Virus record (IMG/VR): IMGVR_UViG_3300037963_003384 | Coordinates: 1 to 25,479 of that record | DNA from: a virus | DNA: 25,479 bases | Direction: 5' to 3' (one strand) | Part shown: piece by piece, positions 6,356 to 23,476 of the stretch | Position numbering within the stretch: the first letter of the stretch is position 1 | Layout: each line of letters opens with the position of its first letter | Notes under the pieces: generated by a model | The model's database searches: none | Told to the model about the DNA's origin: nothing | What the model saw: the letters and a program-made list of their open reading frames with translations, nothing else | Translations under genes and position numbers: made by a program

Positions 6356-9300
6356 TTATTTCTCGCTACTATTAGTTATAATAGAATTTACCTGTTCTGT
6401 CAAGGCTTTTATTTGTTCTTGTTGTTCTTTCATACCTTCTATGAGTAGTGCAACCATTTTCTGATAGTCAACTGCTTTGGTTCCGTCATCTCTTTCACGT
6501 ACCACTTCTGGTAGTATTTCTTCAACTTCTTGAGCAATAACACCAATGTCATGTTTACGTACAAAATAACCATCTTCTCCACCTCTTGACTGAATATGTT
6601 CGTCGGTCCAATCAAACATTACACCACGCATTGCAGTAATTTTTCCAATTGGATCTGCAATAACTTCTATGTTTTCTTTTAAATTTCTATCAGATGAATA
6701 AAACGCAGTAACATCATTGGATGCACGTATTTCACCAGTAACATCCAATGGACAAGTTGGAGCAGTATTACCAATACCAACTGCGCCATCTTCTTGCCAT
6801 ACCATACATTGTGTACCGCCAGATATACCAAATGATACATAGTCTACTGCACCTGCTCCAGAGGCGCCTTTAAATGCCCATGCTTCGTTTCCTGTTATTG
6901 TTGCTTTTAAAAATTCAGTGTTATCAGCAACCTCAATATGTAACTTGGCAGTAGGAGTTACACCAATACCAACATTACCAGCACTATCGATTCTCATTTT
7001 TTCAGTTAAATTTCCACCATTTGCTCTTGTGGTGAATCGTAATGCTGTGTCGTAATTTCCATCTGTAGCGTTTTCTTTTATGCCTTGTATAGTTGCAGTA
7101 CTAACAGTAGAAGAACCACCAGAATTATAAAGAGATCTAAAAGCAATACCACCACCAGGGTTTGTACCATTATAAGCTGTATCTGTATCATAAAGTGATA
7201 GAAGTGCTTTTTCATTTGCAGATGATATAGGAGTTCCTGCTACATTTAAAGGGTAGTCTGGAGCCTGTATACCAATACCTAATCTACCATTGCTATCTAC
7301 TCTCATTGCTTCAGCGGAGGCAGTTGCAAATCTTATATCTGTACCACGCATACCAATTGAAGTTAATGCACTACCGGCGTCATTGGTACCTTGAAAACCT
7401 GGAACACTACCAATTTCACCTATACCACCTGTGAATGCTATATTTTTATCAGTGCCCATTTTAATTGATACACCGGTAGTTGTAGTTTCAAATGCTTGAG
7501 TATTACTATTATGATATAAAGTTACTCCACCACCATCAACAAATTTTGCAATGTTTGTATTTCCAGCGGCATTTTGGATATACATGTCATCAACTTTCAT
7601 GATTAAACTACCAGCACCAGATTCTTCCATATAAGTGGTATCATTTGAACTATCGTGTCTAATTGTGAAATCAGCACCAGTACCAAATGTTGCTTTGGCA
7701 TTATCGCCCCATTCCATTGCATCATCTGATTTGTCCCAAACCACATTGTAGTTGTCACCTGTGAATGTAACATCACCTGTGAATGAACCTCCAGTATCAC
7801 TAACAAAGTTGTTAAGTTGACTGGTAAGTGCCACAGTACCCGATGAGTCTGGTAGAGTGATTGTGTTGTTTGCTGTTGGATCTGTTGCTGTTAACAGCGT
7901 GTCGTTTGTGTTGTCTGTTGCACCTTCAAAGTAAACACCAGTTGATCCTGATACTTGAAATGAAGTTGCTATTGCTTGTCCTGACACAGTAAGATTATTA
8001 CTGCTTGGATTGTATGACAATCCAGCATCTGTGTACACTTGGTTAACTGCCATCGATGAATCATCACTGTCAACAATGTTTACATAATGAGCGGCATCTA
8101 CGGCACCTCTTTGTATTGTGTGTATGGTTTGTGCTTCTGCGGCCGTTGATGCTGAACCTACTAGGTTACCAGTGAATGTTGTTGCTTCCATTGTATCAGC
8201 AACCAGCGTACCCAAACTAAAACTTGAATCTGCTGTGTTAACGTTGCCTGTCAATACAGGATCATATTCATCAAATATTCTAAACTTTTGATCTGTAACA
8301 TCAAAGAATAAACCAACCTGTGTAAATCCTACACCAGACGCACCTGTGTTTCTAAATCCAACCACACCAAGGTCAATGTTTGTTGGAGCGGCGACACCGT
8401 TCCATGTATCATTGCTTGTGTGTCCTGATGTTGCATTAAATTTAACTTTGATACCATTGTCTAGTGTTTGTTCTGCTCCAGTAATGTTTACACCAGTTGC
8501 TTCTGTGGATGAAAAGTTATCTTTACTCCAACTAAATGTATCTGGAGAACCAGTACCATCAATTTTTACATAATATGTTGTACTTGCTGTACCTTCAAAC
8601 AATCCATGGAATGTTGCGTCATTGAGTCCACTACCTGAAAAGTTAACTGTACCAATACTGTCACCAGCACCCAAGAACACATAAGGATCTTCCACGTTCA
8701 ACGAGTTAACATCAGTACTAGCACTGGTACCCAAAATAGTTAAGTTACCACCAATAACAACATCACCATCAAAACGTGCATTACCTGTGGTTCTAAAACT
8801 TGCCGCCATGTTGTTGATCATATCAACATAAACAACACCTGTACTTGCATGTTGTTTTGTAGTTTTACAAACTTCAACACTAAAGTTAGGATAGGTTGGT
8901 GAAGTTGCTGTTAGACTTCCTGCTGTATCAACATACAGCGGAGCACCAACGGCAAACGCACTTGTATCTAAGTTAAAATACAAACCTTGTATCATAACAT
9001 AACCATAACCTGTGTTGGCAATACTGCCAAATGTTAAACCTATTGTGTGTTGTACATCAGTTGAACTTTTATCTGAAAGTGAAATCTTCATACCACCAGC
9101 TGTGAGTCCACCGCTGTATCGCACAGCCTTACCGGCACCAATTGTTGCACCTGTATCGTTATAAACATATTGGAATGTGTTCTGTCCAATTCTAATAATC
9201 TGTGATTGATCGCCTGTGTAGTATGCTAGAGCATCAAAGTTATTTTCGTAAAATATTCTACCTTCGGCGGCACTACCAGGAGTACCTGCACCAGTGTCAA

Positions 9301-10723
9301 TGTCCATATAATCAACACCATCAATGTAACCTTGTGCTTTGATATTATCTGTATGTGTGTTTAGCCAACGCAATGAAGCTGAGCCAAGTTCCCTTGTGCC
9401 GTCTTGGTCAGGTAAAATACTACTGTCAACCTTGGCTGTTATAGTGAGTGTATCTGTGTTTGCATCACCAATGTCTATGTTACCATTGAGTGTACTTGCA
9501 CCTGTTACAGTTAGTCCGCCACCTACGTTTAGGTTTTCAGCAACACCAACACCGCCATCTACAATAAGAGCACCTGATGTTGTGTTTGTGCTTGAGGTTG
9601 TAGCATTTAGGTTTACTGCACTTGTAACATCAAGTGTACCTGCAATAACTGTGTTACCAGTTGCGGCCGCTATGGTTACTTTGTTTAAACTATCACCGTA
9701 TGTGATATCACCAGTGGCACCTATTGTCATTCTTACTGTGCCAGCAGTTTTAAAATCTAATTCATCATTGTCTGCACCTGCACTATCTTCTGCTAAAATA
9801 GTTGTGTCACCATCTCCGTCTTTAACTCCGCCTAATGAGCCCCATGCTGATCCATCATAACCTTCAAATGAACTATCATCTGTGTTATAACGTAATTGTC
9901 CTTGAACGGCAGTTGGTCTTTGTGCAGTACTACCAACTGGAATTTGCACAGAACCAGTTGTTGCAATCTTCATGTTAGTGCCATCAAATGTAAAGTTTGC
10001 ATCATCTTCAAGTACACCTGATGCACCTGCAATCGTAATTCTATTATCTGTAAGAGCAGAGTTTGTTAAACCAGTTACATCTACAGCACCAAATTTTGCT
10101 CCACCAACAGAACCTGACATAACTTCACTGGTGTTAGATGCTTGAGGGATAAACATAAATTTGTTGTCTGAGTCGTCCATACCAAAGAAACCAACTTTGG
10201 GATTTGAACCATCATGCCAACGAAATTCAACACCTCTGTCTTTGTTATCATCTGAGCCAGGAGGAGTATCGCCACCTAGTGTCATAATAGGATCATCCAC
10301 AGTCATTGTGGTACTGTTAACAGTTGTGGTTGTTCCATTAACTGTTAGATTACCTGTGATTGTAACATTGGTAGGCAAACCAACTGTGACTGTGCCAGAT
10401 GATTCTGCTACTGCTACTTCATTGGCAGTACCTTGTACTGTGAGTGTACCACCACCTGCTATGGCAGATGAATTAGAACCATCACTGATTGTAAATGCTG
10501 TTGGTAAGTTTGTAATGGTTTGTCCACCAAAGTCAACTGATTTGTTGAACGCAATTTTTTCTGCACCATTACTTGTGTCAAATGTAAGAAAGGCTGTACT
10601 GCCTTCTTTAATTACTAGTGCGGTAGCTGATGCATCTTTGAGTACAATTTCGCTATCGTTACCAGCTGAGTTTTCTACTGTAAGGCCGTTCTTGACCTTA
10701 AAATTATGTTGAAAAGTTGCCAT
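6356..10723 (-). CDS. Long tail fibre with C-terminal S74 chaperone domain
   Basis: A 1455-residue fibre-like protein, likely trimeric and part of host recognition. The N-terminal two thirds is low-complexity beta repeat: VGLPTNVTITGNLTVNGTTT near 110-135, STAQRPTAVQGQLRYNTDD...FEGYDGSAWGSL near 270-300, TSGALIVDGGVGVAENLNVG near 385-405 and LTATDPTANNTITLPDSSGT near 930-950. The last 112 residues are a Peptidase_S74 intramolecular chaperone: SDRNLKENI starts at Ser1344 with Lys1349, then a GVIAQEVEEILPEVV segment and VDYQKMVALLIEG, ending in a short coiled coil. In known members this domain trimerises, folds the fibre and cuts itself off just before that Ser. Cleavage here is inferred. The ATG has GGAGAGGGA about 8 bases upstream. 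Confidence 0.88.
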   Translation of the reverse strand: MATFQHNFKVKNGLTVENSAGNDSEIVLKDASATALVIKEGSTAFLTFDTSNGAEKIAFNKSVDFGGQTITNLPTAFTISDGSNSSAIAGGGTLTVQGTANEVAVAESSGTVTVGLPTNVTITGNLTVNGTTTTVNSTTMTVDDPIMTLGGDTPPGSDDNKDRGVEFRWHDGSNPKVGFFGMDDSDNKFMFIPQASNTSEVMSGSVGGAKFGAVDVTGLTNSALTDNRITIAGASGVLEDDANFTFDGTNMKIATTGSVQIPVGSTAQRPTAVQGQLRYNTDDSSFEGYDGSAWGSLGGVKDGDGDTTILAEDSAGADNDELDFKTAGTVRMTIGATGDITYGDSLNKVTIAAATGNTVIAGTLDVTSAVNLNATTSSTNTTSGALIVDGGVGVAENLNVGGGLTVTGASTLNGNIDIGDANTDTLTITAKVDSSILPDQDGTRELGSASLRWLNTHTDNIKAQGYIDGVDYMDIDTGAGTPGSAAEGRIFYENNFDALAYYTGDQSQIIRIGQNTFQYVYNDTGATIGAGKAVRYSGGLTAGGMKISLSDKSSTDVQHTIGLTFGSIANTGYGYVMIQGLYFNLDTSAFAVGAPLYVDTAGSLTATSPTYPNFSVEVCKTTKQHASTGVVYVDMINNMAASFRTTGNARFDGDVVIGGNLTILGTSASTDVNSLNVEDPYVFLGAGDSIGTVNFSGSGLNDATFHGLFEGTASTTYYVKIDGTGSPDTFSWSKDNFSSTEATGVNITGAEQTLDNGIKVKFNATSGHTSNDTWNGVAAPTNIDLGVVGFRNTGASGVGFTQVGLFFDVTDQKFRIFDEYDPVLTGNVNTADSSFSLGTLVADTMEATTFTGNLVGSASTAAEAQTIHTIQRGAVDAAHYVNIVDSDDSSMAVNQVYTDAGLSYNPSSNNLTVSGQAIATSFQVSGSTGVYFEGATDNTNDTLLTATDPTANNTITLPDSSGTVALTSQLNNFVSDTGGSFTGDVTFTGDNYNVVWDKSDDAMEWGDNAKATFGTGADFTIRHDSSNDTTYMEESGAGSLIMKVDDMYIQNAAGNTNIAKFVDGGGVTLYHNSNTQAFETTTTGVSIKMGTDKNIAFTGGIGEIGSVPGFQGTNDAGSALTSIGMRGTDIRFATASAEAMRVDSNGRLGIGIQAPDYPLNVAGTPISSANEKALLSLYDTDTAYNGTNPGGGIAFRSLYNSGGSSTVSTATIQGIKENATDGNYDTALRFTTRANGGNLTEKMRIDSAGNVGIGVTPTAKLHIEVADNTEFLKATITGNEAWAFKGASGAGAVDYVSFGISGGTQCMVWQEDGAVGIGNTAPTCPLDVTGEIRASNDVTAFYSSDRNLKENIEVIADPIGKITAMRGVMFDWTDEHIQSRGGEDGYFVRKHDIGVIAQEVEEILPEVVRERDDGTKAVDYQKMVALLIEGMKEQQEQIKALTEQVNSIITNSSEK

Positions 10724-10782: not shown

Positions 10783-13074
10783 TTAGATTAAGTGTTTCTC
10801 AGCAATGAATCTGTAATTCATATTATTAGTGTTGGCAGGAGTAAGTCTTAATCTTACATTACCACCATTAATATCTGCTGAAATTGTAAACTGATTTGCA
10901 CCACTCAACAATGAACCATAAGTTGTCATGTATACATTTGATCCGTCATGCAATACCAGTATCTGTGTGATTTGATATATTGAACTTGTGGTGTTTTCAC
11001 ATGATATAAAATATTTTGCACTTCTATATGTTGCTATGGGCCATTGATCTACATTAAATTCTGCTGTGGATGAACTGGTTGCTGTACTGGCATGACTGTG
11101 ATATGCATTGTGCATTGTGATGTTGTTAGTAAAGACTGTGCCAACTTGATTGGCTTGGCTACCAATATTTTGTGCATAAAGTGTGCCAATTTGATTAGAT
11201 CCTGTACCAATATCACTTTGACCATTGGTTGCTATTGTGATATCTTTGTCATTTAAATCTAATGCACCTCCAAGTTGTGGTGTTGTATCTTCAACAACAT
11301 TTAACATTACAGTACCAGATGCATCTGGTAAAGTTATAGTATTGTCTTGACCAGGATCTGTGGCTGTAAGTTTTGTTTCATTTCCGTCGTCTGTGGAACC
11401 TTCAAATATAAGGTCTGCATCTTTACCAATGCGTACACCTTCTCTGTCAAACTCAGCAACGATTGTGTTTACACTATCTTTCAGTACACTTATTCTAATT
11501 GCACCATCTTCATTGGTTGCTGTTATATCTCTTAGGTATCCATATATTTGTGCATAGGTTTTTGTAGCAGGAGTGCCTGCACTATTGTAAGCATCAAATT
11601 TAATAACACCAATTCCGTCTCCTCCGCTTGGTGTTGCACTCTGTCTATCAAGTGTAATGCTAGGGCCAACTGCATTAGTGTCATCATCACTGTTAATGTT
11701 GATATTACCTTTACCAGTAATATCTTTGCCGTTCATGTCTAGGTTACCACCTAGCTGTGGAGATAGGTCATCTACAACGTCAGCGGCCGAATCCACAAAC
11801 TCAACTTCTGTACCTCCTGCGTTTACTCGTAAAAACTTACCAGGATCAAATGATGCAGGTGTATCTGTTAGTTCTAAGAAATTAGTGGCAGAAAGTCTAT
11901 TCCATGCACCGCCTATGTAACCTTCAAATTCTAAATCATTGGTATTGTAACGTATCATACCAACAGTTGGTGTTCCTGGTCTTTGTGCAGTACTTCCGCC
12001 TGGTATTTGTAAAGCACCATTTGTATCAAACTTTACATTGGTACCATCAAACAATATTGCGTTGTCAGTTGTAAGCCTACCACTGGCTCCAGCAATAATA
12101 AATTTTTGATTGTTTAGATCACCTACTGTCATTTCAGTGAATGTTGCTGTACCCTGTGATGTTAAATTACCAGTGAGTGATGTAATACCTTTGACAGTTA
12201 AATTATCTTCTGCTTCTAATTCACCTAGGTGTACTTTGATATAATCTACAATGTTTACATTACCAGAAGTTTGTCCATCTTCTGTAGGACATGAAATAAA
12301 AGCAACTTCATCTTCGCTTTCGTCATATATGGCACCCACGTTATTTGTGTTTGTAGATACGCCATCGCCTCGAGTAACAATAAACCCTTGGTCAACTGAT
12401 TGTGTTGTAGTGCCTTCGCCTAATTTAATGAGTGCTTGGTTAATAGATGTGCTGACAAGTGTTGTTTGTGTACCACTTACTTGAAAGTTTCCTGTCATAG
12501 TAACTGTTCCACCAACGTTCATGTCTCCACCAACGTTTAATGCACCGCCAATACCAGCACCACCTGATACAACCAATGCACCTGTAGAAGTACTAGAACT
12601 TGTGGTACCATCATTGATATCAACTCTTGCATCAAAATCTGCAATACCACCTACCAGCAAAGTAGAATCTAGTGTTGCATCACCTGTTGCTTTAAAAGAT
12701 CCGCCAACATCTAACAGTTTTGTAGGAGCGGCCTGATTTATACCTATGTTACCATCTGAATGGATAACCATACGTTGTGATCCAGCAGTAAAAAAATCAA
12801 TTTGATCGTTATCTGTGCCATCACTATCTTCAACAGTGACATACGTATCTTTGTCAATATCCTGCATAATGGTAGTAAATGTTTTCCATGCACTACCAGT
12901 ATAGCCTTCAAATCTAGTTGTAGTTGTATTGAATCTTATATCACCTGTGTTAGGTGATCCTGATCTATCCGAAGTTGCACCTGACGGTAAAGTCAGCGAA
13001 CCGGTGATATCTAGTTTCAATTCATTGGTTTGAGTTTTTAACAGATTTTGCTGGTGATCTATTTTAATTGCCAT
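10783..13074 (-). CDS. Tail fibre-like structural protein, 763 aa
   Basis: A repetitive beta-structured fibre protein. It carries the same building blocks as its neighbours: LPSGATSDRSGSPNTGDIRFN with FEGYTGSAWKTF at the N terminus, a second copy (IPGGSTAQRPGTPTVGMIRYN ... FEGYIGGAWNRL) near 355-390, SGALVVSGGAGIGGALNVGG near 160-180, and two PQLGGxLDxNxKDIT units (near 440 and 600). The last 95 residues (from about 669) match the C terminus of the 305-aa protein in pattern: an FxIAxxRxxxYFI segment, HDGxNxYxTxYGxLxSG and a final NGGNVxLxxT strand. There is no S74 domain, so it must fold by another route. A late promoter lies just upstream at 13099-13106. Confidence 0.82.
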   Translation of the reverse strand: MAIKIDHQQNLLKTQTNELKLDITGSLTLPSGATSDRSGSPNTGDIRFNTTTTRFEGYTGSAWKTFTTIMQDIDKDTYVTVEDSDGTDNDQIDFFTAGSQRMVIHSDGNIGINQAAPTKLLDVGGSFKATGDATLDSTLLVGGIADFDARVDINDGTTSSSTSTGALVVSGGAGIGGALNVGGDMNVGGTVTMTGNFQVSGTQTTLVSTSINQALIKLGEGTTTQSVDQGFIVTRGDGVSTNTNNVGAIYDESEDEVAFISCPTEDGQTSGNVNIVDYIKVHLGELEAEDNLTVKGITSLTGNLTSQGTATFTEMTVGDLNNQKFIIAGASGRLTTDNAILFDGTNVKFDTNGALQIPGGSTAQRPGTPTVGMIRYNTNDLEFEGYIGGAWNRLSATNFLELTDTPASFDPGKFLRVNAGGTEVEFVDSAADVVDDLSPQLGGNLDMNGKDITGKGNININSDDDTNAVGPSITLDRQSATPSGGDGIGVIKFDAYNSAGTPATKTYAQIYGYLRDITATNEDGAIRISVLKDSVNTIVAEFDREGVRIGKDADLIFEGSTDDGNETKLTATDPGQDNTITLPDASGTVMLNVVEDTTPQLGGALDLNDKDITIATNGQSDIGTGSNQIGTLYAQNIGSQANQVGTVFTNNITMHNAYHSHASTATSSSTAEFNVDQWPIATYRSAKYFISCENTTSSIYQITQILVLHDGSNVYMTTYGSLLSGANQFTISADINGGNVRLRLTPANTNNMNYRFIAEKHLI

Positions 13075-13098: not shown

Positions 13099-13106
13099 TA
13101 TTTATA
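13099..13106 (-). promoter_or_regulatory. T4-type late promoter for the 763-aa fibre gene
   Basis: A perfect TATAAATA on the minus strand, 25 bases before the ATG at 13074. It overlaps the stop codon of the upstream 305-aa gene (GTA TAA ATA), so the promoter is built into the end of the coding sequence. Confidence 0.65.
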
Positions 13107-14019
13107 CGTTTACTGTCTGGCGTATAACTTTCAAAGATGCACTGGTGGCTGAACCCATTGTGACCTTAAGTTCTACGTTTGCTCCATTTACTGCCGCAGT
13201 AAACGTGCCTAGAGTAGATCCACTTACTAGTGTGCCGTATTGTGTAATATAAGCATTTGTACCATCATGGCCTACCATAACTTTACTGCTTTGAAAAGCA
13301 GAGCCTTGTGTGATTGCAATAAAATATTCACTGGCTCTAAAATTTGCTATAGCAAATGTATCTAGCACAGTTAATGCTGTAGAGGCTATGGTTGCTCCAG
13401 CACTTGTGATATGACTGTCATTTGCACCACTTCCGCTGATCTTGTATGTTGGTGTCATTACAGAAGTTGTTACTGTAACATCAGCTGGTAAACCAACTGT
13501 TACTGTATCTGTTGCACCTACAACAACTTCAACTTCGTTGGTAGTTCCATTAAATGTAAGAGTATCAGCACCTAAATTTACAGCCTGTGTGTTTGAAGCA
13601 CCATCAACTATATTAAGAATTGCACCACCGGCCGCAGTATCAACATAAGATTTTGTAGCGGCATCTTGAGCATTAGTAGGATCGCCTAAGTTTTCTATTT
13701 TGCCTGTGCCTAGGTCTGCACTTTTTAACCATGCTTTGCTCCAAGTTGCACCAGTTGTTCCTAATGAATATGTGTTATCACCATTTGGTCTAATGTTAGA
13801 ACCTATGTCCGCGGCAAGATTAAGTGTGTCTGTGTCAGCATCACCTAAACTAAGTGTACCGCCATCTGCTGTGATATTACCTTTAACGTATAATGCTTTC
13901 TCTACTAGAACTCCGCCTTTGAGTTGTAAAGCACCTGTAGACGCAGTTGAATCTGTTGTGTCTTCAACTACTGTAATTGTTGCTCCACTACCTGAAGCTG
14001 TTTTTCTGAAACTTGGCAT
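13102..14019 (-). CDS. Short fibre-like structural protein, 305 aa
   Basis: The shortest of three related fibre proteins. Residues about 20-50 hold the TASTGALQLKGGVLVEKALYVKG unit in parts (a version of the SGALVVxGGxGI unit of the other two), followed by GDADTDTLNLAADIGSNIRP and LGDPTNAQDAATKSYVD near 108-125, a segment common in phage fibres. The C-terminal 93 residues match the end of the 763-aa fibre, with YFIAIT, VGHDGTNAYITQYGTLVSG and NGANVELKVT. The two genes thus carry the same tip domain on shafts of different length. The ATG at 14019 follows AGGAG by six bases. A weak late-type element (CTAAATAG, 14037-14044) lies upstream. Confidence 0.82.
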   Translation of the reverse strand: MPSFRKTASGSGATITVVEDTTDSTASTGALQLKGGVLVEKALYVKGNITADGGTLSLGDADTDTLNLAADIGSNIRPNGDNTYSLGTTGATWSKAWLKSADLGTGKIENLGDPTNAQDAATKSYVDTAAGGAILNIVDGASNTQAVNLGADTLTFNGTTNEVEVVVGATDTVTVGLPADVTVTTSVMTPTYKISGSGANDSHITSAGATIASTALTVLDTFAIANFRASEYFIAITQGSAFQSSKVMVGHDGTNAYITQYGTLVSGSTLGTFTAAVNGANVELKVTMGSATSASLKVIRQTVNV

Positions 14020-14046: not shown

Positions 14047-14073
14047 AAAAAGGAAGACGCCAAAGGCGCCTTC
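14047..14073 (-). terminator. Rho-independent terminator ending the 14.1-14.3 kb RNA
   Basis: Minus-strand hairpin GAAGGCGCC-UUU-GGCGUCUUC, a 9-bp stem with one G-U pair, followed by CUUUUU (14047-14052). The G-U pair is present only in leftward RNA (the other strand has an A/C mismatch), which sets the direction. It closes the gene-free interval after gp23. Confidence 0.75.
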
Positions 14074-14315
14074 GCAAACTAAAAAAAGGAGTTATTAGTG
14101 AGTAGGGAGGACTTGGGTTTCACCTCCAACCAGGTCGACCGAGATACCATTCTCAAAATCCCCTGGAACTTACTTCCGCCCGGGAGGGCGATGTGATTCT
14201 TGGTCGCTAAACTTCGAACCTGGCTACCACGCCTAAGCAATCAAGTTATGCCTCTTGGTCAGACACGTTTCCTTGCACTACTCTAGTAAGACCGTCGTCT
14301 TGCTATAGTTATTAA
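14047..14315 (-). ncRNA. Candidate structured RNA downstream of gp23
   Basis: About 270 bases with no credible gene, lying between the gp23 terminator (14362-14396) and a second leftward terminator (14047-14073). The interval is richer in G+C than the genes around it. Its ends can pair: GAGTAG at 14100-14105 with CTACTC at 14278-14283, enclosing other stems such as GGAGG/CCTCC (14106-14127), CCAGG/CCTGG (14130-14166), CGCCC-GGGA-GGGCG (14177-14190) and AAGAC/GTCTT (14288-14301). TCTTGGTC occurs twice, near 14198 and 14252. A TATAAGAA element at 14324-14331 could start the transcript. It does not fold as a tRNA or show tmRNA landmarks. I infer an independent small RNA; the class is unknown. 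Transcription has not been shown. Confidence 0.55.
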
Positions 14316-20265: not shown

Positions 20266-20273
20266 TATTTATG
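20266..20273 (-). promoter_or_regulatory. T4-type late promoter for gp20
   Basis: CATAAATA on the minus strand, an exact NATAAATA match, 36 bases before the gp20 ATG in the 59-base gap behind the tape-measure gene. Confidence 0.6.
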
Positions 20274-20289
20274 GTAACCTGTCAACCTA

Positions 20290-22581
20290 TTAAGATTGTG
20301 ATGTCATTTCCACATAGAACTTTTTATCTTCATCAAGTTGTTGTCTTTTCAATCCATTTGCAAAGAAGGTATTATTTTGAATCTCTTTTAAAGCCAATAC
20401 ACTTTCTTTTCCTGATTTTTCCATAATCACACCTAGTCTAACCATTAAATCTGCCTGCCCATTTGATGGATCAAAGCCTTCCATAATACTGCCTAAATTG
20501 GTTCGTTTAATAGAATTAATTGATGTAAGGGCTTGATTGTTTGCTTGAATAATTTCTTGTTTTTCAGGTCCTGTTTCATCACCGGTAAGAGCTTTATATC
20601 CAAGATATGCTCCTCCGGCAAGAGCCGCAACTCCTACTGCCGCGGCTATAAAAGGTGCCATGGAAGATGCCGCTATGGCACCAATACCTGCTCCGGCGGC
20701 ACTCAATAACATTCTACCGCCTACGAAAGAGAATAATAATCCTCCTGCAGTTTTTAATCCCCCCATGACTGCTTTAGCACTTTTTTTGAAGAAGCCAGGT
20801 TTATTAGTTCCAGGTTTATTGCCTTTCTTATCAACCTCTGCAAAGTAATCAATACTTCCACCACCGCCACTACCAGGATCAGCATTCATCTGAGATGAAG
20901 CCATCTGTTGAGCACTAAACAGAGCCATGGCGGCAACAACCTGTGCGGCATCGTAACCTTCACCTAAATCTCCATCTAGTCCTAAAGTTCCTCTGGTAGA
21001 ATCAATAAATGAATTTACAAAGGCGGCCATTTCAGTAGTATCACCTGGTTTGACTCCTATACCAGGCACTTCTGTGTTGATCAGTTTAGTTAACAACTGA
21101 CTCGTTAATGTTTGTATATTTCTATCTTTGGTACCAAGCTGTTCAGCCTGACCGCCAGGCTGTGCGTCTAGTTGTAAGTTATCCAAATCTTGATTACGTA
21201 ACCTTTGCATTGATTGATTTAATTGCATTATTGAATTAAGCACAGTAGTAGCACCTTGTCCAGAGGCACCTCCGTCTGCCATTGCTATTGCAGATAGACT
21301 TCGTATACCAGCTTGATTACCCATTATCCCTTGTAATTGATCTCCCATGCCTGCTATAGCACCTACATCACCGGCTATGTATGCCCTCATGATATCTGCC
21401 AATCCAACTCCAGCATTACTTTGAAGGAATGCATTAGCCGCCGTCATTCCTTGACCGCCTTGCAGTTCTAGTGCCGCCTCCATGCCCATACCACTCTGCA
21501 TGGCAAAATTTGCTATTTTTGTTAATTGTGGACCTAATTCATCACCTAGCATAGCCTGTACAACATTTGCCGAATTGTCTAATCGTGTTTGTTCTTCTGT
21601 TGATAAACCTGCCCTATATAAACCGCCTAGAGCATCAGTTCTTTCAGCCATTCTAGCTCTAATCATTTCTCTTCTGTCAGAACCTGTGAGCTGTGCCATT
21701 GCTGTGGTTTCATACAGCATCATTTGTAATCCGCCACTGGTATCTCTCAAACGCCTGGTAACTTCTTCTTGACTCAATCCCATTCTTTGCATGATTTCAA
21801 TTTCTTGCAACATCACTGAATTTAATTCTGCAACGCTGAAACCAAAATCACCATATTGTTTTGTACCTAAGGCAAATTCTTTACTCAACTTAGTAAAATT
21901 TCTCATTCCATCATCAACATCACTACCCAACGTTGCAACACTTCTACTGCTTTGTTCTAATGCATTGGTAAGATCCTTAAGGTATAATCCAGCTTCACCG
22001 GCCGATGTTCTAAGTGATAACATGTTATCATACAATCCACCACCTGTTATCTGAGTCATTGCTTTGGCTTGAGCCGCAAATTCATCTGTAACACCTAGTG
22101 CAAATCCTACTGTTGCCGTAGTAGCTTTTGTTAAAGCACCGATGGCGCCTTCGGCATATTTTCCCACTTTAGGAATCATTTTAGCAAATCCTTCTGCACC
22201 TGCTGTTACCCCTTGAATCATAGGGCCTAATGTGCCTTGCAATGATGTATTACCTTTTGCTAGAGCATTGAATCCTTGTTTAAGATTCTGACTCATATTA
22301 TCCATTGCTTGTTTTCGTTGAGCGGCGGCCTTAGCCGCGGCCTCTTTTGCGTCTTTGTTTCCTCTTTTGGTATCGTTATTGTTTGTCTTGGTATCTTGTT
22401 TAATTACAGTAAGATGTTTCTCCATGTTCTTCAAACCTGCGGCAGATATTTTGTTACCACGCATGATTGAAGTTAATATGCCCTGTGACATACCGGTCGC
22501 AGTGGCTACTCTCTGCAGAGTGGCCTCCATTGCAAAGTCAGGAATGTTTACGCTTTCGCCGTTTATAGTAATTGTTGCCAT
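20290..22581 (-). CDS. Probable tail tape-measure protein
   Basis: A 763-residue, Ala/Gly/Gln-rich, helical protein. Residues 70-95 are a charged helix, 100-170 contain Gly/Ala-rich helices (GAEGFAKMIPKVG), the centre is a long helical region with many Met and Gln, and about 610-675 is strongly hydrophobic (GGLLFSFVGGRMLLS, then IAASSMAPFIAAAVGVAALA). A helical body with a late hydrophobic stretch is typical of tape-measure proteins, which set tail length and enter the host membrane during injection. The N terminus (LQRVATATGMSQGILTSIM) resembles a helix-turn-helix. It faces the baseplate hub gene gp26 across a shared promoter region, which fits a tail-tube role. No named homolog was recognised, so a different internal virion protein remains possible. 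Confidence 0.6.
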   Translation of the reverse strand: MATITINGESVNIPDFAMEATLQRVATATGMSQGILTSIMRGNKISAAGLKNMEKHLTVIKQDTKTNNNDTKRGNKDAKEAAAKAAAQRKQAMDNMSQNLKQGFNALAKGNTSLQGTLGPMIQGVTAGAEGFAKMIPKVGKYAEGAIGALTKATTATVGFALGVTDEFAAQAKAMTQITGGGLYDNMLSLRTSAGEAGLYLKDLTNALEQSSRSVATLGSDVDDGMRNFTKLSKEFALGTKQYGDFGFSVAELNSVMLQEIEIMQRMGLSQEEVTRRLRDTSGGLQMMLYETTAMAQLTGSDRREMIRARMAERTDALGGLYRAGLSTEEQTRLDNSANVVQAMLGDELGPQLTKIANFAMQSGMGMEAALELQGGQGMTAANAFLQSNAGVGLADIMRAYIAGDVGAIAGMGDQLQGIMGNQAGIRSLSAIAMADGGASGQGATTVLNSIMQLNQSMQRLRNQDLDNLQLDAQPGGQAEQLGTKDRNIQTLTSQLLTKLINTEVPGIGVKPGDTTEMAAFVNSFIDSTRGTLGLDGDLGEGYDAAQVVAAMALFSAQQMASSQMNADPGSGGGGSIDYFAEVDKKGNKPGTNKPGFFKKSAKAVMGGLKTAGGLLFSFVGGRMLLSAAGAGIGAIAASSMAPFIAAAVGVAALAGGAYLGYKALTGDETGPEKQEIIQANNQALTSINSIKRTNLGSIMEGFDPSNGQADLMVRLGVIMEKSGKESVLALKEIQNNTFFANGLKRQQLDEDKKFYVEMTSQS

Positions 22582-22591
22582 TAAACACCTA

Positions 22592-22599
22592 TATAAATA
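22592..22599 (+). promoter_or_regulatory. T4-type late promoter for the gp26 operon
   Basis: Perfect TATAAATA, 47 bases before the ATG at 22646. It lies inside the leader of the opposite transcript. Confidence 0.7.
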
Positions 22600-22601
22600 A
22601 C

Positions 22602-22623
22602 TGTGTATAACCGAAGATACACA
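22602..22623. promoter_or_regulatory. Hairpin shared by two opposed late transcripts
   Basis: TGTGTAT and ATACACA form a perfect 7-bp stem around AACCGAAG, which reads CUUCGGUU in the leftward RNA. It lies between the rightward promoter (22592-22599) and the leftward one (22627-22634), so it would be at or near both transcript starts. Confidence 0.55.
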
Positions 22624-22626
22624 ATG

Positions 22627-22634
22627 TATTTATT
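22627..22634 (-). promoter_or_regulatory. T4-type late promoter for the tape-measure gene
   Basis: AATAAATA on the minus strand, an exact NATAAATA match, 45 bases before the ATG at 22581. Confidence 0.65.
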
Positions 22635-22645
22635 AGAGGAAAATC

Positions 22646-23476
22646 ATGTCGAATAACCCATTAATGTCGCATATGCGACAAGAGAATGTTTTTGTTAGAT
22701 TGCCCAGCAAAGGAAATTTCTATAAACAAAGGCCAGATCTAACAGATGATGGCGAAATTGGTGTGCGAGCAATGACCAGTGCAGATGAAATTGCATTGAA
22801 AGTTCCTGATGCACTATTCAATGGCGAAGCCACATACAGAGTATTAGAAAGTTGTTGTCCACGCATCAAAGATCCTAGAGAAATGCCTTACAATGATGTT
22901 GATGTTGTACTCATGGCAATACGTAGAGCCACATACGGCAATGATCTTCAAGTGCCTGTGAAATGCAAAAATAAAGAATGTAACCATGAACAAGAATACA
23001 TAAAAGAAATTGATCCTGTACTTGCACAGATTCCTATGCTCGATGATACATACACAGTTGATCATAATGGCTTAACAATTTATCTCAAGCCCATAGATTT
23101 GCAATCTACAACAAAATTACAAATGCAGGCAGTAGAACAAATAAAAATCAATGACACACTTTCAAATTTTGAAGGCAGTCAGGAACAAATCACATCATTT
23201 CAAGAAAGCATGAAAGCCATTGCAGATAGTAACTCAGATATTATTGCAAGATGTGTTTACATTGTAGAACTGCCAGACAAAACCAGAGTAGAAGAACCTG
23301 AACATATTGCTGAATGGATTAGTAATATTGATGTTGTTACTTACAACACCATAATGGAAAAATTGTTAGAAGTACAGTCCATTGTAATGAAAGTGGTAGT
23401 CAATGGTGAATGTGCAAAATGTGGCACACCATTTGAACAACCACTGATAGTGGATCAATCACATTTTTTCGCATGA
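22646..23476 (+). CDS. 26: Baseplate hub protein, gp26-like
   Basis: Likely baseplate hub subunit. T4 gp26-family features are the N-terminal VFVRLPSKGNFYK (15-27), a middle DLQVPVKCKNKECNHEQEYI segment (100-119), TIYLKPIDLQSTTKLQ and a closing CAKCGTPFEQPLIVD...FF. Cys107/Cys112 and Cys256/Cys259 may bind a zinc ion. With 276 residues it is longer than T4 gp26 (208). The ATG at 22646 follows GAGGAAAA. The stop overlaps the next gene by four bases (ATGA). The assignment rests on residue pattern and on adjacency to a tape-measure-like gene; I am fairly but not fully sure it is gp26 rather than another hub protein. Confidence 0.68.
   Translation: MSNNPLMSHMRQENVFVRLPSKGNFYKQRPDLTDDGEIGVRAMTSADEIALKVPDALFNGEATYRVLESCCPRIKDPREMPYNDVDVVLMAIRRATYGNDLQVPVKCKNKECNHEQEYIKEIDPVLAQIPMLDDTYTVDHNGLTIYLKPIDLQSTTKLQMQAVEQIKINDTLSNFEGSQEQITSFQESMKAIADSNSDIIARCVYIVELPDKTRVEEPEHIAEWISNIDVVTYNTIMEKLLEVQSIVMKVVVNGECAKCGTPFEQPLIVDQSHFFA

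Follow-up and report, generated by a model that had tools for sequence, protein, structure and literature searches.

Between two divergent virion genes of the DNA studied here, two putative late promoters of the T4 type point toward each other across a spacer of 64 nt. The facing geometry at this hub-gene junction is a well-supported sequence feature, and it is a real, conserved regulatory arrangement made from a known promoter type. The arrangement probably serves to save space. In the reading that we favor with reasonable confidence, two T4-type late promoters are interdigitated, so that space is saved and the leaders are not shortened. The window, meaning the whole stretch of DNA that was analyzed, is a record of 25,479 bases, which is less than a whole genome, and we regard it as part of a giant T4-like phage of the RaK2 type, presumably a marine one. 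The features that matter here are the following:

22582 to 22645: divergent spacer of 64 nt, holding both candidate promoters and both ribosome-binding regions
22592 to 22599, + strand: putative T4-type late-promoter box TATAAATA, rightward, for the hub gene; core ATAAATA intact in 6 of 6 distinct clade spacers
22627 to 22634, - strand: putative late-promoter box AATAAATA, leftward, for the virion structural/tape-measure-like gene; core intact in 6 of 6 distinct clade spacers
22602 to 22623: inverted repeat, arms 22602-22608 and 22617-22623, loop 22609-22616, 7 bp, perfect
22605 to 22621: predicted overlap of both 5' ends, 17 nt complementary, derived from a box at -13 to -6
22646 to 23476, + strand: gp26-like baseplate hub protein, 276 aa; phrog_150 (E 2.6e-18) and PF12322 (E 2.6e-14, above cut-off)
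20290 to 22581, - strand: virion structural/tape-measure-like protein, 763 aa; weak match to phrog_14121, profile match to the neighbors of RaK2-type hub genes

By tblastn the hub gene matched 61 phage records, with Agrobacterium phage Atu_ph07 at the top (35.7%), and among those listed the records are mostly jumbo-phage genomes of 280-490 kb with a few shorter fragments. The 763-aa ORF had no tblastn match in the phage collection and its homology came from profile comparison, in which it matched the hub-gene neighbor in RaK2, CBB, GAP32, BF, Munch, XaC1 and 121Q (E 4.9e-10). Its relatives are annotated as 'virion structural protein' or similar, and as 'putative tape measure protein' in pEa_SNUABM_12. 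An earlier note on this DNA had called it the tape-measure gene. The homology to virion structural proteins stands, but there was no Pfam match and the PHROG match, to 'virion structural protein', was weak, so the narrower name is only likely.

Both boxes that the earlier note had singled out, TATAAATA on the + strand and AATAAATA on the - strand, were found where it had placed them. Their ATAAATA cores are 27 nt apart, and the spacer carries the TATAAATA / NATAAATA box by which T4-type late promoters are recognized. Over the whole window such boxes are no more frequent than chance (2 copies of TATAAATA against 1.72 expected from shuffled sequence, and 3 of WATAAATA against 4.43), and perfect 7-bp inverted repeats are not very rare either, with 969 in 20000 dinucleotide shuffles of the spacer and 39 start positions in the window. 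Because of this, the case rests on position and conservation. A facing pair was rare in dinucleotide shuffles of the window spacer (11 of 20000).

The late box is placed at -13 to -6 relative to the start in a passage of PMC1524935. On this basis the starts would lie at about 22605 (+) and 22621 (-), with predicted leaders of 41 nt (+) and 40 nt (-), which are short leaders ahead of virion genes. Each box falls inside the predicted leader of the other transcript, as had been proposed, and this is conserved in relatives. In T4 late promoters the -10 box is sufficient and there is no -35 element, and for that reason the DNA behind each start may be occupied by the leader and coding sequence of the other gene. 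The spacer would then be a compact divergent control region in which two T4-type (gp55-class, ATAAATA) late promoters point at each other and each immediately precedes the ribosome-binding region of the opposite gene, and both genes would retain a leader of about 40 nt inside 64 nt. Back-to-back promoters with ordinary leaders (the median for single late boxes is 29 nt, n=180) would take about 2 x (29 + 13) = 84 nt, and facing promoters about 60 nt. Initiation on one DNA copy would be mutually exclusive, since the polymerase footprints would overlap. Many genome copies feed late transcription, so both genes could be served.

Conservation was examined first among close relatives. There are six distinct clade spacers (the window, which is identical to L001, L002, L003, L004, L009, and L010, which is identical to L011), and both ATAAATA cores are present in all of them. 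The spacer is under selection, with 80-98% identity compared to 53-79% at hub-gene four-fold sites, and it was the more conserved in 5 of 5 comparisons. In the comparison of cores and loops and in the gap measurements, the clade spacers reach one base into the leftward start codon, which makes the leftward clade leaders measured there one nucleotide too long. Such a comparison of spacers had been suggested as a check on both the promoter pair and the stem between the boxes; it upholds the pair but only the core of the stem, as the loop and the outer pairs are not kept. The inner 5 stem pairs persist in 6 of 6 clade spacers, with one G-U (L009), whereas the outer pairs are lost in L003, L004 and L010.

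At greater distances, a profile search gave 61 IMG/VR loci, which derive from two peptide patterns, and the facing pair was found at the hub junction of 30 of them (29 called by script and L042 recognized separately). The remaining 31 lack a complete facing pair: 13 have a long divergent ORF upstream but not both of the facing ATAAATA boxes (L012, L016, L030 plus its copy, the seven members of the L021 group, L029 and L037), three (the L049 group) have an upstream ORF of 131 codons only, and 15 have no divergent upstream ORF. Named jumbo-phage records were also examined, and 12 of 19, a chosen and non-random set out of the 61 tblastn-matched records, have the facing pair. These are PA5oct, Munch, RaK2, BF, CBB, GAP32, XaC1, Hallingskeid, SNUABM_19, SNUABM_12, XbC2 and fENko-Kae01, and not all of their spacers are distinct (SNUABM_12 and SNUABM_19 share that of BF, and fENko-Kae01 that of Munch). 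The pair is conserved at hub-protein identities as low as about 25-30%. Seven named records lack the complete pair: 121Q and SCTP-2 have back-to-back boxes at the hub junction, XacN1 (L190) and RAS14 (L195) have one ATAAATA box and CTAAATA on the opposite strand, Phosso has no box, Atu_ph07 has one box and another neighbor, and the junction in Vibrio 2.275.O is not divergent. CTAAATA-type boxes were observed at the hub junctions of XacN1, RAS14 and the L021 group, where relatives carry ATAAATA, and a part of PMC1524935 reports CTAAATA as the late motif of Aeh1.

Facing pairs also occur at other junctions. T4 itself has them at 4/53 and at inh/segE, with gaps of 7 and 6 nt and no inverted repeat, in contrast to the 27 nt and the inverted repeat of the window. 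Of five other T4-like phages examined at 4/53, three have a facing pair (Dhakavirus EcWhh-1, Proteus phage phiP4-3 and Acinetobacter phage MD-2021a) and two do not: Aes508, where the neighbor differs, and leE. The stretch of X14845 that was examined carries no T4 promoter annotation, and a section of PMC2988022 mentions a late promoter of inh singly and says that the segE promoter lies in the non-coding region ahead. A second facing junction, where a small hypothetical gene adjoins one for a virion structural protein, is conserved in RaK2 (116132-116191; L203 1633-1692), CBB (210022-210078), GAP32 (214262-214318) and XaC1 (247121-247182). In five genomes, 109 divergent junctions were called by a simple, crude script that overlooked the hub junction in both RaK2 and PA5oct; 7 were facing, 6 were back-to-back, 22 had boxes on a single strand and 74 had none. 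When 20 other A5T2 motifs were placed on the same 109 junctions, each gave at most 2 facing pairs, compared to 7 for ATAAATA. When genes were ignored and pairs within 30 nt were counted in 15 records, 30 were facing and 24 back-to-back. Facing pairs per se are thus not in excess, and position is what stands out.

The recurrence is mostly at short spacers. Facing spacers are mostly 45-79 nt long, whereas back-to-back spacers mostly reach at least 104 nt. In the five genomes the facing spacers measured 47-63 nt, and two hub junctions that the script missed add values of 69 and 70 nt; the back-to-back spacers were 50, 104, 107, 109, 116 and 176 nt. The difference in length there gave p = 0.018 in a rank test. 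The rank test of 33 against 8 spacers, the rows of which are not independent, did not include L042, L047, identical copies, the second junctions of CBB, BF and Munch, the 4/53 homologs, or XacN1 and RAS14, in which the second box is CTAAATA. Exceptions to the length rule among facing spacers are L015 and L018 at 106 nt and L047 at 149 nt, where the start is uncertain, and the back-to-back exception is T4 26/51 at 50 nt. That spacer (L186 16430-16479) has overlapping back-to-back late boxes, TATTTATAAATA, and an extra leftward GATAAATA, so the overlapping boxes of the gp26 gene in T4 solve the short spacer in another way.

The perfect 7-bp hairpin that had been noticed between the boxes is present (arms TGTGTAT at 22602-22608 and ATACACA at 22617-22623, with a loop of 8 nt). 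The 64-nt spacer folds to -11.9 kcal/mol on the + strand (z -3.5; 0 of 200 shuffles as good) and -13.5 on the - strand (z -3.1; 1 of 200), and no Rfam family was found in it, with one sub-threshold match outside the spacer. However, the claim of the earlier note that the two transcripts share a C(UUCG)G hairpin did not hold. C(UUCG)G hairpins occur in T4 mRNAs, and the window shares the letters CUUCGG on the - strand, but they fall within a loop, CUUCGGUU, that is open in the minimum-energy fold; closure of UUCG by C-G would require a 2-nt bulge, and there is no closed UUCG atop a continuous stem. UUCG is also confined to the window and L001, whose spacer is identical. The loop on the + strand is AACCGAAG in the window and AACCAAAG in L002, and L003, L004, L009 and L010 diverge more. 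Because the 8-nt loop is open and relatives have other loops, the tetraloop was rejected as a shared element.

The likeliest role of the repeat in wide-gap spacers is perhaps a short 5'-terminal hairpin on each mRNA, and a 5'-stem role of this kind is possible. That the repeat is the whole point of the arrangement, giving both mRNAs a 5' stem-loop against 5'-end-dependent decay or mutual pairing of 5' ends, is doubtful. One palindrome would suffice for both mRNAs because the complement of a hairpin is also a hairpin. Consistent with this, the repeat spans both predicted starts in BF, XbC2 and the clade of the window, where the gap at the hub junction is 25-28 nt, nucleotide 1 is paired at 9 of 10 predicted 5' ends in five clade spacers (without L002) and at 2 of 2 in both BF and XbC2, and L003 and L010 have gained an inward C-G pair. 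However, when the window stem is cut at the predicted starts, the transcribed part is worth just -1.3 and -1.2 kcal/mol. CBB and GAP32, which have wide gaps, carry an imperfect repeat across the predicted starts, and nucleotide 1 is paired at 0 of 2 and 1 of 2 ends, respectively. Structure on the + strand is missing in 16 of 16 narrower facing spacers, though the room for one is small, and there is no 5' hairpin at either of the remaining ATAAATA sites in the window (20266-20272 and 13099-13105, both on the - strand). No stem pair was altered on both sides among the six clade sequences, which are few and make this a weak negative, and shuffled columns of the same six scored at least as high as the real ones for covariation in 500 of 500 trials. 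Such repeats are also frequent by chance. Among 170 non-facing late boxes in five genomes, 23 are followed by a 5' structure of <= -2.5 kcal/mol in which one of nucleotides 1-3 is paired. As to decay, a passage of PMC3014915 gives the action of RppH on T4 mRNA as undetermined.

It is unlikely that the facing promoters are kept for regulation, in which exclusive initiation or head-on interference would balance the two virion proteins. The pair is held at the orthologous junction across great distances, and polymerase footprints are predicted to overlap at every gap observed between facing boxes. However, the gap ranges from 6 to 28 nt and the boxes of 121Q and SCTP-2 are back-to-back at the hub junction, so no fixed interference geometry is kept, and the arrangement also links unrelated gene pairs (4/53, inh/segE and RaK2 ORF125w/126). 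A combined form, in which an ancient T4-like module balances the two virion proteins through per-copy exclusive initiation and through pairing between mirror-image 5' hairpins with complementary loops, is decidedly improbable. We give little credence to the palindrome being the DNA site through which a dimeric regulator would act on the two promoters. Symmetric bases do lie outside what would be transcribed (22602-22604 and 22622-22623), and in the clade the right half hardly varies, but the left half drifts and the outer pairs are broken in three clade spacers. Additionally, when the conserved right arm was used as a query, 7 of 45 matches had a facing box, all of them at the hub junction of contigs already known. 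That there is no promoter pair at all, just A+T-rich boxes that arose by chance or a hairpin terminating transcription in both directions, fits the chance-level box counts and the frequency of 7-bp repeats but is very improbable given the conservation of the pair, the selection on the spacer, the lack of any intrinsic terminator (G+C-rich stem and U run) in 22400-22800, and a site that adjoins the 5' rather than the 3' ends of two genes.

The preferred reading, interdigitated late promoters, can be set beside known systems. T4 late promoters, which depend on gp55, gp33 and gp45, place the same TATAAATA box ahead of virion genes; late-factor dependence is known for them, and the boxes of the window are putative counterparts judged from sequence. 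The closest likeness is to the RaK2-type jumbo phages (CBB, GAP32, BF, XbC2, RaK2, Munch, XaC1 and PA5oct), which have a facing ATAAATA pair at the orthologous junction. BF and XbC2 share an inner inverted repeat of other sequence, whereas RaK2, Munch, XaC1 and PA5oct have a narrower gap than the window and no repeat. Coliphages 186 and P2 have face-to-face promoters with overlapping transcripts in an early lysis-lysogeny switch with repressors. In the window, too, the putative promoters are opposed and their predicted transcripts overlap, but both appear to belong to a single, late class and are not known to have a repressor. For CBB, a portion of PMC5259590 predicts 35 ATAAATA sites as the late promoter from structure-related genes and reports a gp55-like gene, with gp33 and gp45 not detected, and the late motif of cyanophage S-PM2 is given as NATAAATA in a part of PMC2984593. 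Face-to-face late promoters in T4-like phages were not found described in the open PMC literature, a weak negative as few subscription papers are covered there.

These results suggest a rule for the packing of divergent virion operons in T4-like phages, with facing late promoters in short spacers and back-to-back promoters in most long ones. They also carry a warning for annotation, as a late box may fall within the leader of another gene. If exclusivity has consequences, such junctions would offer a natural system for the study of head-on initiation by a clamp-activated polymerase.

Other features of the window were observed on the - strand. The two further ATAAATA sites lie ahead of a portal ORF (20266-20272) and ahead of ORF 10783-13074 (13099-13105). 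A strong G+C-rich hairpin flanked on either side by T runs, which looks like a terminator, lies at about 14047-14082, upstream of ORF 13102-14019. Positions 6356-10723 encode a tail-fiber-like protein of 1455 aa, the C-terminal end of which is a Peptidase_S74 chaperone domain.
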